A DNA stretch of 64,000 nucleotides from Alicyclobacillus sp. (GTDB taxonomy: Bacteria > Bacillota > Bacilli > Alicyclobacillales > Alicyclobacillaceae). A program made the translations under genes and the position numbers. The DNA is taken from NCBI GenBank assembly GCA_023511295.1, contig JAIMBT010000002.1, forward strand, positions 124,001 to 188,000. Direction: 5' to 3'. The notes beneath the pieces are model-generated. The model did not search any database and was not told the DNA's origin. It worked only from the letters and a program-made list of their open reading frames with translations. How positions within the stretch are numbered: position 1 is the stretch's first letter; every line of letters begins with the position of its first letter. Below, one piece after another: positions 10,012 through 38,905 of the stretch.

Positions 10012-10130
10012 CTCTCATCTCTCAGTTCCGGCAAGCGCGCCAGAACTGCAGGAATTGGCACCTCTCCAGGCCGAAGCCTGGTGGTTGCCGGGTTTCATCG
10101 GGCCAGTCCCTCCACCACTCTGGATAAGAG
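10012..10130 (-). promoter_or_regulatory. SAM-I (S-box) riboswitch
   Basis: Minus-strand leader whose ends CTCTTATC and GATGAGAG close P1. Between them are the conserved AGAGTGGTGGAGGGACTGGC, CCGATGAAACCCGGCAACC, and a purine-rich GGTGCCAATTCCTGC, all S-box core elements. It precedes a T-tailed hairpin and metX-hom. Binding of S-adenosylmethionine is expected to end transcription early. Confidence 0.95.
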
Positions 10131-10378: not shown

Positions 10379-11113
10379 ATGCCTCCCGTTTCCGCCGTGA
10401 TTCTGGCTGCTGGTCGGTCTGCCCGCCTGCGGCCGCTGACGGACGATAGACCGAAGTGCCTGTTGCCGATGGGCGCGAAGACCATCCTCGACTGGCAACT
10501 GCAAGCTCTCAGGGCCATCGGCGTTTCCGACATCACCGTGGTCGTGGGATACCAGCAAGCGCAGATTCGGGCCCATATCGCGACACATTACCCGCAGTTG
10601 AACGTGCGCTACGTGGTCAACGAGCGGTTCGCATCGACCAACACCCTGTTTTCACTCGCGCTCGCATTGGAGCAGGTGACGGGCGATTTCTACTATCTCA
10701 ACGCCGACGTGGTGTTCGAACAGGCCATCCTCGAGCGCCTGGCGCCGCATCGGGGCGGCGGGTATCTGGCGGTCGACCGCAAGCAGTGTCGCGAGGAAGA
10801 GGTCAAGGTCCTGGTCGACGGGACTCAGGTCCTTCAAATCGGCAAGCACTTGGACCCTGCGGCGTGCTACGGCGAATTTATCGGTGTGGCGAAGTTCACG
10901 GACGGGTTTGCAGATCGGTTCCGCGCGACCGTGATGGCCGAGGCCGTGCCGGGGAATGAGATGAAGTTCTTTGAGCACGCCCTCGATGTCATGCCGGACA
11001 AGTCTGGCATGAACGTGGTGGATATCACCGGCCTGCCCTGTGTCGAGGTCGATTTCCCTGAGGACTACGAGTACGCCGTACAGGAAGTCCTCGCGAAGTT
11101 TCCGGCCCGCTGA
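10379..11113 (+). CDS. Sugar/alcohol-phosphate nucleotidyltransferase
   Basis: A 244-residue enzyme of the NTP-transferase fold. The signature VILAAGRSARLRPLTDDRPK (residues 7-26) binds the nucleotide, and LNADVVFE holds the metal-binding aspartate. Length and sequence style resemble LicC-type phosphocholine cytidylyltransferases and inositol-phosphate cytidylyltransferases more than glucose-1-phosphate uridylyltransferases. The next gene is a CDP-alcohol phosphatidyltransferase, so this enzyme probably makes the CDP-activated alcohol; the substrate is unknown. The ATG follows AAAGGAG. It is the first gene of a three-gene cassette. Confidence 0.85.
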   Translation: MPPVSAVILAAGRSARLRPLTDDRPKCLLPMGAKTILDWQLQALRAIGVSDITVVVGYQQAQIRAHIATHYPQLNVRYVVNERFASTNTLFSLALALEQVTGDFYYLNADVVFEQAILERLAPHRGGGYLAVDRKQCREEEVKVLVDGTQVLQIGKHLDPAACYGEFIGVAKFTDGFADRFRATVMAEAVPGNEMKFFEHALDVMPDKSGMNVVDITGLPCVEVDFPEDYEYAVQEVLAKFPAR

Positions 11114-11145
11114 CAGCGGACCGACGCCACACGGAGGTCGTCGAC

Positions 11146-12006
11146 ATGACAGAGCGACAGCGGTCCGACTTTGCGCAAATCAACGCCTGTGCGAAGCGGC
11201 CCACCGACATCTGGACGAACTACCTATACTACACCTTTTCGCTGCGCCTTGTGTACCTCATCCGCAACACGCGCATCTCCCCGAACGGCCTGACCTTGAC
11301 CGCGTTGGTCTTGGTCCTCATCGGGTCTGTCCTGTACGCCCTTGGAACCCGCACGGGCCTCACAGTGGGATTGATTCTCGTGCAGATTTCCTATGTATTC
11401 GACTGCGCGGATGGCCAACTCGCCCGGTTTCGCCAGCAGTATTCGCCCATCGGTGGGTGGTTGGACCAAATGGCGGACCGCGTGAAGGAGTTCGTCATGC
11501 TGTTCGCCCTCGCTTACGGGTACAACCGATTCCATCCGGGAACGCGGGTCTGGATGTGGGCGATGTTCGCCCTGTTTGCCTTGTATGTCCTCGAGTACTT
11601 GGGACAGATTGAGATGTTTCGGCGACCGCCGGCAACGCCGGAGGAAGGCGCGGATATGTTGAAGCGCACGCGGCCAGTGGCCGCGCCGGCACCGGCGCCA
11701 GCGGACCTCCCCGCGAAGTCAGAAGCCGCGAAGGGCGACGATGTCCCCACACCGAGCGCCGCAGCGGAGGACCCGGGCGCCGACAGCTTTTCTCGGATGC
11801 AGCGCCTGCGCAGCTTGGTTCCCTTTCGGAGCTTCATCATCGGCGAACAGTACTTCGCCATGCTCGTCTTCCTGGCGTTCGGAGCGGTCTATCCGTACCT
11901 GGTGTTCGTCGCCGTTCTCGGCTTCCTGATGGCCATCTACCGCCCGGTCGTCGACGCGGTCAAGCACCGCCGGGCTGTGCGCGCGAAGCGGGGTGCTGTG
12001 CTGTGA
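11146..12006 (+). CDS. CDP-alcohol phosphatidyltransferase with a cytosolic insert
   Basis: Integral membrane enzyme that transfers a phosphoalcohol from a CDP-linked donor. The family signature D-x2-DG-x2-AR-x8-G-x3-D-x3-D is complete: Asp86, Asp89, Gly90, Ala93, Arg94, Gly103, Asp107 and Asp111. Hydrophobic helices lie on both sides, at about 47-85, 115-155 and 236-265. A polar, Pro/Ala/Glu-rich stretch of about 65 residues (158-222) splits the membrane domain, which is unusual for this compact family. The ATG follows GGAGG with 8-base spacing. Its stop overlaps the start of the glycosyltransferase (GTGA). The product could be a phospholipid or a soluble phosphodiester; the sequence does not say which. 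Confidence 0.9.
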   Translation: MTERQRSDFAQINACAKRPTDIWTNYLYYTFSLRLVYLIRNTRISPNGLTLTALVLVLIGSVLYALGTRTGLTVGLILVQISYVFDCADGQLARFRQQYSPIGGWLDQMADRVKEFVMLFALAYGYNRFHPGTRVWMWAMFALFALYVLEYLGQIEMFRRPPATPEEGADMLKRTRPVAAPAPAPADLPAKSEAAKGDDVPTPSAAAEDPGADSFSRMQRLRSLVPFRSFIIGEQYFAMLVFLAFGAVYPYLVFVAVLGFLMAIYRPVVDAVKHRRAVRAKRGAVL

Positions 12007-13172
12007 GACGTGTCTCCACGGTTGTCCTCACCGCCGCGGTGGCGTGGACGGGGACGCATGCTCGCCCGCAGCACGTCGCGCTCGGACTCGCCAGGCGCGG
12101 CTGGGATGTGTTGTTCGTCGACGGCCCGGTGACGTGGATTGGCCCCCTGAAGAATCCGGACCTTCGCGCCCGCGCCATTCCAAAGGATCCCTTGCGAGAC
12201 GTCCCCGTGGATGGCTCTGGGCGGCTTCGCGTACTGTCACCGATGGCCTCTGCGCCGTTTGGAAACCTGTACCGCCCGGTCAACCGCATAAACCAATGGC
12301 TGCTGGCGGAGCAGATTCGGCGGGCCGCGCCAGGACCGTACGTCCTGTTGCCGATGCTCCCGGGGTCGGTCGACCTCCTCCCCCACCTGCACCCGTTGGC
12401 GACCGTCTACGACTGTGTAGATCTGCACGCGGAGTTTCAAGGGTTTGTCCATCCGGCACTGGTAACCCGAATGGAGCAAGACCTGGTGGCCGTCAGCCGC
12501 GTTGTGTTCGCAACGGCAGACGCGCTGCGGGAGCGTCTGCTCGCATGGCACAACGACGTGCGGCTGGTGCCGAACGCGGCCGAGGTGGAGCACTTTGCGA
12601 AAACTTCGGAACTGCCGGAGCACCCGCTGTTGGCCCCCATCCAAAAGCCGCGGGTCGGCTACGTCGGCGGCATCGGATCTTGGGTGGACCAACAGCTGAT
12701 CTTTCAGCTCGCTGTCTCCCGCCCGACGGTGCAGTGGGTGATGATTGGTCCGGTCGAAACGGACGTTTCCCGCCTGCGCGGCCTGCCCAATGTGCACTTC
12801 CTCGGCCTCCAGCCGTACGCGCAACTACCGCGTTTCCTGGCGGGCTTTGACGCCGCCCTGCACGCCTTCGTCCAGAACGACCTGACCCAGAGCGTCAACC
12901 CCATCAAGATCTACGAGTACCTCGCTGCGGGCCGTGAAGTGATTGCCACCACCAGCCGCGAGCTTTCCCGGATGGACCGTTTGCTGTGGCTCGTTCGCAA
13001 CGCTGACGACGCCCTGGCCGCACTCGACGCGATTCTGGCGGGCGCGCACAGGTGCAGCGACGCCGACCGGCAGGCGTTTGTCGCGGCGCACTCGTGGGAC
13101 GCGCGCGTGAGCGAGATAGACCGCGTGCTGCGCGCCATCGTCCCTGCCGAGTTGCGGCCGCCGCGGGTGTGA
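12003..13172 (+). CDS. GT-B glycosyltransferase, TuaH-like
   Basis: The 389-residue protein has two Rossmann-like halves. The N-terminal half starts HARPQHVALGLARRGWDVLFVDG. The C-terminal half contains PRVGYVGGIGSWVD and the donor-binding segment NPIKIYEYLAAGREVIAT. This layout is that of family 4-type transferases such as TuaH of teichuronic acid synthesis. It starts with a GTG that overlaps the stop of the CDP-alcohol transferase, so it is translationally coupled. It probably glycosylates the lipid or polymer made by the two upstream enzymes. Donor and acceptor are not predictable. Confidence 0.82.
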   Translation: MRRVSTVVLTAAVAWTGTHARPQHVALGLARRGWDVLFVDGPVTWIGPLKNPDLRARAIPKDPLRDVPVDGSGRLRVLSPMASAPFGNLYRPVNRINQWLLAEQIRRAAPGPYVLLPMLPGSVDLLPHLHPLATVYDCVDLHAEFQGFVHPALVTRMEQDLVAVSRVVFATADALRERLLAWHNDVRLVPNAAEVEHFAKTSELPEHPLLAPIQKPRVGYVGGIGSWVDQQLIFQLAVSRPTVQWVMIGPVETDVSRLRGLPNVHFLGLQPYAQLPRFLAGFDAALHAFVQNDLTQSVNPIKIYEYLAAGREVIATTSRELSRMDRLLWLVRNADDALAALDAILAGAHRCSDADRQAFVAAHSWDARVSEIDRVLRAIVPAELRPPRV

Positions 13173-13253: not shown

Positions 13254-14822
13254 TTACACCCCGGCATGCCGCGCTGCTTCGCGCTGTCGCAACTCGATGC
13301 GGCGGATTTTTCCACTCGACGTCTTCGGCAACGAGTCCACGAATTCGATGGCGCGCGGGTACTTATAAGGCGCTGTGACGGCCTTCACGTGGTCCTGCAG
13401 CCGACCCACCAACTCCGGGTCAGCGGCATCTGCGGGGTCTCGCAAGACGACGAACGCCTTCACGATGTGCCCACGTTCCTCGTCCGGGCTGGCCACGACG
13501 GCGCATTCGGCCACCTGTGGATGTTTGACGAGCGCGTCCTCGACTTCAAACGGGCCAATCGTGTAGCCGGCCGAGATGATGATGTCGTCCGCCCGCCCCT
13601 CAAACCAGATGTATCCATCCTCGTCCATCCGCCCCTGGTCGCCCGTGATGTACCAGTCGCCGCGGAACGCCTTGGCGGTGCGCTCCTCGTCTGCCAGGTA
13701 CCCTTTGAACAGTGTCGGGAACGTCTTGTGGACAGCGATGTGCCCGGTCTCGCCGACCGCAACTGGGTTCCCGTCGTCGTCGACAATCTCCACGCGCGTA
13801 CCGGGAAACGGTTTGCCCATGGAACCGGGCTTCACGGGCATGTCGCGCAAGGTCCCGGCAAGCAGACTGTTCTCGGTCTGCCCGTAACCGTCGCGGACCG
13901 TTACGCCGAAGGCCTTGGCGAAGGTGTCAATCACCTCGCGATTGAGCGGCTCTCCCGCCGACACAGCGGACCGCAACCGCACCTGGTAGTGTTCGAGATT
14001 GCGGACTTTCGCCATCAGGCGGTACTCCGTCGGTGTTGCGCACAGCAAACGGATGGAGTAGGTCTCCAGCAGTTGCAGGGTGTTGGCGGGATCAAACCGT
14101 CCCTGGTAGACAAACCCCGTCGCACCGTTCCCCAGCACCGCCACGAATGGACTCCACACCCACTTCGCCCAGCCCGGGCTCGCCGTCGCCCAAGCCAGCT
14201 CCCCTGCCTGCGCGTCGAACCAGTACGTCCCGGCGACTGCGAGGTGCTCGCGCGGCCACGCGTACGTGTGCATCACGCCTTTCGGGCCGCCGGTCGTGCC
14301 ACTGGTGTAGGACAGGAACGCGAGGTCGGCGTCATCCGTGTCGACGAGGAAATCCGCCGTACTCCCGAGCTCGTACAGGGTGTCCATCTCCGTCCATCCC
14401 TCCACGGGCCCTCCCACGCACACCCGTTGCGCCAGCACTGCCCCGGCTGTCTTCGCTGCTGCATCCACCTCGGCCGTGAGGCTGTGGTGCGCAATCACGG
14501 CCTTCACGTCCGCATGATGCAGCCGGTAGGCGATATCTCCTTGACGCAGCATCTCAGACCCCGGCAAGACCGTCGCCCCGACCTTCAACAAAGACAGGTA
14601 GACCACATAGGCGTCGACGCCGCGCGGCAGCAGGACGAGGACGCGTTCTCCTTTGTGCACGCCGATGCGGGACAGCGCACTGGCCAGGCGGTTGGTCCGC
14701 GCACGCAGTTCACCGTACGTCACGCGCGTTTCGCTGCGGTCTGCACCGACGCAGAGAAGCGCGAGCCGTTCTGGGTGCGCCCCTGCAATCGCGTCCACCT
14801 CTCGAGCAAAGTTGTACCCCAA
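13254..14822 (-). CDS. Acyl/aryl-CoA ligase, AMP-forming
   Basis: Adenylate-forming ligase of 522 residues, shorter than the FAA1-type enzyme at 3408. P-loop SYTSGTTGGPKGVMHTY, acyl-site motif DGYGQTENSLLAG, hinge GDWYITGDQGRMDEDGYIWF and the catalytic Lys near the end (LPKTSSGKIRR) are all present. It resembles medium-chain, acetyl- or benzoate-CoA ligases; the acid is not predictable. The TTG start at 14822 is chosen because GGAGG lies 9 bases upstream. It follows an acyl-CoA dehydrogenase gene on the same strand after 253 bases, so a shared catabolic role is plausible. Confidence 0.9.
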   Translation of the reverse strand: MGYNFAREVDAIAGAHPERLALLCVGADRSETRVTYGELRARTNRLASALSRIGVHKGERVLVLLPRGVDAYVVYLSLLKVGATVLPGSEMLRQGDIAYRLHHADVKAVIAHHSLTAEVDAAAKTAGAVLAQRVCVGGPVEGWTEMDTLYELGSTADFLVDTDDADLAFLSYTSGTTGGPKGVMHTYAWPREHLAVAGTYWFDAQAGELAWATASPGWAKWVWSPFVAVLGNGATGFVYQGRFDPANTLQLLETYSIRLLCATPTEYRLMAKVRNLEHYQVRLRSAVSAGEPLNREVIDTFAKAFGVTVRDGYGQTENSLLAGTLRDMPVKPGSMGKPFPGTRVEIVDDDGNPVAVGETGHIAVHKTFPTLFKGYLADEERTAKAFRGDWYITGDQGRMDEDGYIWFEGRADDIIISAGYTIGPFEVEDALVKHPQVAECAVVASPDEERGHIVKAFVVLRDPADAADPELVGRLQDHVKAVTAPYKYPRAIEFVDSLPKTSSGKIRRIELRQREAARHAGV

Positions 14823-38749: not shown

Positions 38750-38766
38750 CGGTAACGGCATGTCGA

Positions 38767-38885
38767 GCACTTCCTCCCGCTGGTATGACCCAGATCGAGT
38801 CCTGAAGGGTTAGCGGAACCCCGCTTCTCAGCCTCAGAGCTGCGGCTCTTTCAAACCGGCAGCCCATCGGCACCCCTAGCGCCCC
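38767..38885 (-). promoter_or_regulatory. TPP (THI-box) riboswitch
   Basis: Minus-strand leader with the conserved GGGGTGCC start, CTGAGA (in GAGGCTGAGAAGCGG), AACCCTTC and the pyrophosphate-sensor GATCTGGGTCATACCAGCG followed by GGAGGAAG. It controls the ykoE transporter operon through the terminator just downstream. Confidence 0.95.
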
Positions 38886-38905
38886 TGATTCATTTGTACA
38901 CTGCC

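Follow-up and report, generated by a model that had tools for sequence, protein, structure and literature searches.

The general pairing of a cytidylyltransferase with a cytidine diphosphate (CDP)-alcohol phosphotransferase is already known. In AF2299 of Archaeoglobus fulgidus (PDB 4o6m/4o6n/4q7c), a six-helix phosphotransferase is fused to an N-terminal cytidylyltransferase-like domain and holds CDP-glycerol in a small hydrophilic pocket (PMC4634129). The fused, inositol-using IPCT/DIPP synthase likewise couples a cytidylyltransferase to a six-helix phosphotransferase and uses a soluble CDP-alcohol to form a phosphodiester. AF2299 and DIPP synthase do not act on lipids; members with six transmembrane (TM) helices use soluble acceptors, whereas lipid-acceptor members have three or four extra helices (PMC4634129). 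Here, we describe a three-gene locus of Alicyclobacillus sp. (order Alicyclobacillales) that encodes a predicted nucleotidyltransferase (NT), a CDP-alcohol phosphotransferase (AP) and a glycosyltransferase (GT) as separate proteins. The locus lies in a 64,000-nt stretch of contig JAIMBT010000002.1 (the window), which is part of a 3.43 Mb, 99.6% complete genome whose relatives are Alicyclobacillus species. Its features are as follows.

10379..11113, + strand: NT, 244 aa, LicC/PntC/CpgD-type cytidylyltransferase, from its sequence a predicted CTP:glycerol-phosphate cytidylyltransferase
11146..12006, + strand: AP, 286 aa, assigned to the class I CDP-alcohol phosphotransferases, six TM helices
11608..11808, + strand: Pro/Ala-rich insert of AP, residues 155-221 (core 165-211 of low confidence), TM4-TM5 loop, probably cytosolic
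12003..13172, + strand: GT, 389 aa, GT-B fold glycosyltransferase, GT4-like, TuaH/WcaI-related, start codon GTG

An earlier note on this DNA had described three genes of these classes, and we could confirm all three open reading frames, which share one strand and match Pfam families over the cut-off (NTP_transf_3 / NTP_transferase for NT, CDP-OH_P_transf for AP and Glyco_trans_1_4 for GT). Because NT, AP and GT are each conserved in other genomes (approximately 40-75% identity) with invariant active-site residues, these reading frames are far from chance. The translational coupling that the note had claimed for the whole cassette holds at AP/GT, where the stop and start codons overlap by 4 bp (GTGA), but not at NT/AP in the window, where the gap is 32 bp and each of the two genes has its own Shine-Dalgarno-like GGAG.

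The best explanation of the locus, to which we give an even chance as a whole, is a pathway based on CDP-glycerol. NT would join cytidine triphosphate (CTP) and glycerol phosphate to CDP-glycerol, AP would move the glycerophosphate onto a hydroxyl group of an acceptor that is soluble or carries a phosphate, with release of cytidine monophosphate (CMP), and GT would add a sugar to the product or make a glycosylated acceptor. The joint product would be a glycosylated glycerophosphodiester, which may serve as a solute, as the head group of a lipid or as a precursor for the envelope. We consider it roughly a balanced call that CDP-glycerol is the intermediate shared by NT and AP, because AP is nearest to AF2299, whose published donor is CDP-glycerol, because NT has a CpgD-type Asn-x-Asp, the Asn of which replaces the Asp of LicC or the Glu of PntC, and because across 55 genomes of the order AP occurs if, and only if, NT or TagD does. 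TagD is the classical glycerol-3-phosphate cytidylyltransferase that makes CDP-glycerol, and its fold is unrelated to that of NT.

The best PDB sequence matches of NT include LicC (1jyk, 4e-18) and a PntC-type enzyme (6pd1, 5e-12), and its alignment to the PntC profile is full length. Residues R16, K26, N88, N108-A109-D110, E199 and E223 are invariant in relatives, and NT possesses the catalytic R16 and K26 and the metal-binding Asp of the LicC/PntC/CpgD (COG1213-type) enzymes. In LicC and PntC, an acidic residue (D105 and E104, respectively) lies near the substrate amine (PMC6697681), whereas N108 occupies this position in all 18 NT sequences of the order. In CpgD of Caulobacter, which uses phosphoglycerate for a sphingolipid head group, the critical residues are R16, K26 and D112 (PMC12275187), and Asn90 and Asn110, the latter followed by Gly111, bind the three-carbon glycerate (PMC13228409). 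NT and CpgD have in common the LicC-like fold, R16 and K26 at the same numbers, the metal Asp (D112 of CpgD corresponding to D110 of NT) and an Asn-x-Asp/Asn pair, with N88 and N108-A109-D110 matching by spacing; the correspondence is one of numbering and spacing, not of sequence alignment. Across 81 NT homologues, the motif reads NAD or NGD in Alicyclobacillales, Streptomyces and Halanaerobiales; other Bacilli with NT fused to, or encoded next to, an aminotransferase have DGD, and Myxococcota mostly have YSD; in this alignment, the LicC row is displaced by one column.

AP reaches 54.7 bits against PF01066 (cut-off 22) and carries the complete signature D86xxD89GxxAR94...G103xxxD107xxxD111, in which D86, D89, G90, A93, R94, G103, D107 and D111 are invariant in 18 sequences of the order and in 33 when distant ones are included. 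From its sequence and fold we class AP as a class I CDP-alcohol phosphotransferase with predicted catalysis. The predicted structure (predicted local distance difference test, pLDDT, 85.8; predicted template modelling score, pTM, 0.78) contains a juxtamembrane helix and six membrane helices. Profile searches placed AP nearest to AF2299 (4e-22; DIPP synthase 1e-7), and structure comparison gave the same result, with Z 23.9 and 2.2 Å over 208 residues for AF2299 and Z scores of 21.2, 18.1 and 14.6 for DIPP synthase, PIP synthase and cholinephosphotransferase, respectively. AP has the fold, signature and six TM helices of AF2299, but identity is approximately 21%, the motifs CAKRPxDxWT and PFRxFxIGEQYF and a variable TM4-TM5 loop mark the AP family, and the counterpart of the fused cytidylyltransferase-like domain is here a separate LicC-fold protein. 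The acceptor of AP is probably soluble. The earlier note had proposed a lipid or polymer as the product; because AP is a six-helix protein that most resembles AF2299 and DIPP synthase, which do not process lipids, that proposal is no more likely than a soluble glycerophosphodiester or the modification of a glycan. We also rejected AP as a housekeeping phospholipid synthase; three other members of the CDP-alcohol family, namely PgsA, a PgsA/ClsA-like and a PssA-like protein (named by eye from similarity), are encoded elsewhere in the genome.

A search with AP in 41 relatives gave matches at E<=0.001 in 26, distant paralogues counted, and a true orthologue (>190 bits) in 23. Among 20 loci examined, 16 contain NT, AP and GT (in one of them GT is truncated where the contig ends), two contain AP and GT without NT, and two contain NT and AP without GT. 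NT-AP spacing in relatives ranges from -17 to +93 bp, a range that omits one locus with an uncertain AP start, and in several relatives the two genes overlap by 4-17 bp. Within the order, NT is present in 35 of 59 genomes; AP was found in 37 of the 55 genomes scored for it, 34 of these with NT and three without, and NT is absent from all 18 genomes that lack AP. The pair occurs in other neighbourhoods in the A. sacchari/sendaiensis group and in A. acidiphilus; Sulfoacidibacillus and a related metagenome-assembled genome (MAG) have the genes in the order GT-NT-AP, and the flanks differ there too. Because the pair stays adjacent in unrelated neighbourhoods, its linkage is not merely inherited synteny. 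NT and AP are a core that is inherited as a unit in the order, and GT is a frequent, dispensable accessory that some species have lost. The dedicated CDP-activated pathway proposed earlier is borne out by the co-occurrence of NT and AP in 34 genomes and by the presence of TagD in the only AP genomes without NT, and conservation of the cassette in relatives, with genes that do not act alone, holds for NT and AP but only in part for GT. A. acidiphilus has two NT-AP pairs (L041 9251-10738 and L042 9256-10744) and no GT homologue.

If NT makes CDP-glycerol, another source of CDP-glycerol is expected in AP genomes that lack NT. The three genomes with AP and GT but without NT belong to one genus (the A. 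herbarius / kakegawensis / shizuokensis group), and TagD (TIGR01518) exceeded the curated cut-off in three of the 59 order genomes, exactly these three. The 55 genomes scored for AP thus fall into 34 with AP and NT, three with AP and TagD, and 18 with none of the three genes. The chance odds of this distribution (34 and 3 of 37) are 1 in 7,770 if the genomes are counted as independent, although the three share one genus. Because of this shared genus the exchange was probably one event, and we regard the evidence as moderate. TagD in the three genomes adjoins two TagF-like genes and TagGH-like transporter genes (the latter named by eye); it may have been acquired with a cluster for wall teichoic acid and have rendered NT superfluous, or it may coincide with the lack of NT by accident. 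Neither TagD nor a TagF-like protein (PF04464) was found in the Alicyclobacillus sp. genome; the teichoic acid pathway would share CDP-glycerol with the cassette, and its TagD occurs only in the genus that lost NT, but TagD is of unrelated fold.

Homologous AP and NT genes are also neighbours in Streptomyces, Myxococcota, Halanaerobiales and other Bacilli. The Streptomyces order is AP-NT-glycerol-1-phosphate dehydrogenase-AP-GT2-ABC (ATP-binding cassette) transporter, a region mentioned as AP-NT-AraM(G1PDH)-AP-GT2-TagGH-like in PMC13118837; at L062 9518-16557, this cluster adjoins a squalene/phytoene synthase-like gene. As in the window, NT and AP stand side by side together with a glycosyltransferase, and a glycerol-1-phosphate dehydrogenase homologue is present as well; unlike the window, there are two APs, an ABC exporter and another GT family, and the NTs are apart in the tree. 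Streptomyces, Spongiactinospora and a few MAGs have the dehydrogenase gene next to NT/AP, and the Alicyclobacillus sp. genome contains only weak matches to it (20-30% identity). We rejected the dehydrogenase as proof of the substrate, given these weak matches and the separation of the NTs in the tree, and retained it as no more than weak support. Because of how the NTs group in this tree, the wider comparison backs the chemistry of NT and AP in general, not glycerol in particular.

Several points weigh against CDP-glycerol. The NTs of Alicyclobacillales form one clade (support 100/99) that is nearest to the Halanaerobiales NT and then to the aminotransferase-fusion domain (80/92), not to the dehydrogenase-linked NTs of Streptomyces. 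Phosphoglycerate may be the substrate of NT, and the match to the CpgD residues is based on numbers and spacing. The TagD/NT exchange within one genus may be a single event, and TagD beside TagF-like genes also fits an unrelated acquisition of wall teichoic acid synthesis. GT, finally, persists alone in one genome.

Possible, although it convinces us less, is that the substrate of NT is a different small phosphate (phosphoglycerate or the phosphate of an amino alcohol or sugar), whose activated group AP then transfers, and that the TagD genus lost NT by coincidence. Enzymes of the NT family are known to accept phosphocholine, 2-aminoethylphosphonate (AEP), phosphoglutamine, inositol phosphate and phosphoglycerate (PMC6697681, PMC12275187), CpgD uses phosphoglycerate with the same Asn-x-Asp, and among the closest NTs beyond the order is a PntC-AEPT-like nucleotidyltransferase/aminotransferase fusion that is located beside an AP homologue in other Bacilli. 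At loci L110-L114, from other families of Bacilli, AP, the fusion and a second NT stand in a row. Because phosphoenolpyruvate (PEP) mutase had no match in three genomes (G073, G132 and G154), the fusion may have a non-phosphonate role. The invariant Asn in place of the amine-contacting Asp or Glu of LicC and PntC speaks against such an alternative substrate, and TagD, a CDP-glycerol maker, marks exactly those AP genomes that have no NT. A phosphonate (Pnt) lipid was rejected for the Alicyclobacillus sp. genome, in which the best match to PEP mutase (TIGR02320) is 135 bits against a cut-off of 319.6.

It is unlikely, in our judgement, that GT is a mere neighbour kept by synteny, a view that is compatible with CDP-glycerol as well as with another activated phosphate. 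GT was not found in 6 of the 17 AP-holding genomes tested, and the complete genome G020 has GT alone, with NT and AP gone from the same site; a further genome, G030, also has GT and no AP, although its GT lies at the end of a contig. GT nevertheless stays with NT and AP in a second family of the order (GT-NT-AP, with other flanks) and overlaps AP in the window. GT matches PF13692 with 30.5 bits (cut-off 27), and its model (pLDDT 93.8) has a GT-B fold with Z up to 30 to GT-B enzymes. Its top structural matches (sucrose-phosphate synthase, MshA, GlgM, PimB' and BshA) are too many to discriminate, making the fold uninformative for specificity, and its matches among sequence models are to relatives of TuaH/WcaI and score far below the cut-off.

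In several relatives, the genes directly upstream of NT encode a double-permease ABC protein and a C-terminally extended ABC ATPase:

L028, 5755-9052: ABC pair upstream of NT
L029, 6010-9113: ABC pair upstream of NT
L030, 6169-9243: ABC pair upstream of NT
L037, 5993-9101: ABC pair upstream of NT
L047, 6136-9218: ABC pair upstream of NT
L142, 3798-7237: ABC pair upstream of NT

The ABC pair is still upstream of GT in G020, and the cargo of the transporter might be linked to the cassette.

We doubt that AP is a PIP-synthase-like phospholipid synthase that uses CDP-diacylglycerol and a phosphorylated alcohol, with NT and GT serving another step. PIP synthases are structural relatives of AP (Z about 18), and Arg222, Arg266 and Lys273 of AP are invariant, Arg222 and Arg266 lying in the C-terminal half; these residues may hold an acceptor phosphate, as proposed for R153/R191 in PIP synthase, although the positions were not aligned. 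AF2299 and DIPP synthase are closer to AP by profile and by structure, however, AP reaches only 36 bits against the PIP synthase equivalog NF045883 (cut-off 170), and the strict pairing of NT and AP would have no reason if CDP-diacylglycerol were the donor. Inositol-1-phosphate synthase is also absent from the genome. The same absence (PF01658, with six positive controls including Thermotoga) led us to reject as very improbable an inositol solute pathway of the IPCT/DIPP synthase type, in which GT would be the counterpart of the Thermotoga mannosyl-DIP enzyme: a soluble phosphodiester would be a natural product of a six-TM AP, but the matches of NT and AP to the bifunctional IPCT/DIPPS model are weak (64.6 and 57.4 bits against a cut-off of 580 for the equivalog NF041135).

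The Pro/Ala-rich insert of about 65 residues amid the AP helices, to which the earlier note had drawn attention, is present but is not a family trait. In the window it comprises 67 residues between TM4 and TM5 with 37% Pro+Ala, the longest and richest in Pro/Ala of loops that span 28-67 residues and 11-37% Pro+Ala across the window and relatives; in the relatives they measure 28-59 residues and most are not Pro/Ala-rich. Residues 165-211 are of low confidence in the model and the loop is predicted to be disordered; by analogy with solved members, it would face the cytosol. We rejected the insert as a functional domain because it is hypervariable and disordered.

Because the genes on both flanks run in the opposite direction, NT, AP and GT probably form a separate transcription unit. 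One flank comprises genes for a homoserine dehydrogenase and a homoserine O-acetyltransferase (named by eye) behind an S-adenosylmethionine (SAM) riboswitch; on the other, an acyl-CoA ligase-like gene (named by eye) ends at 13254.

10012-10130, - strand: SAM (S-box) riboswitch (score 88 bits), located upstream of the genes for homoserine O-acetyltransferase and homoserine dehydrogenase

A thiamine pyrophosphate (TPP) riboswitch at window positions 38755-38887 (- strand) scored barely above the gathering threshold.

Our literature search found no paper joining Alicyclobacillus with a CDP-alcohol phosphatidyltransferase and no description of the product of AP; a polar-lipid survey lists, besides the usual lipids, only unidentified phospho- and glycolipids. 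Our searches agree with the earlier note that the genes correspond to no recognised named pathway. More tentatively than for the locus itself, we propose that the whole order makes an undescribed glycosylated glycerophosphodiester, with CDP-glycerol supplied by a LicC/CpgD-fold enzyme and TagD substituting for it in one genus. If this is true, NT would represent another enzyme family that makes CDP-glycerol, unrelated to TagD and different in fold, which feeds a CDP-alcohol phosphotransferase and not TagF. The orphan AF2299-like phosphotransferase family would gain a concrete substrate, and a lineage-wide glycerophosphate compound would be predicted in acidophiles, including the Alicyclobacillus that spoil fruit juice.

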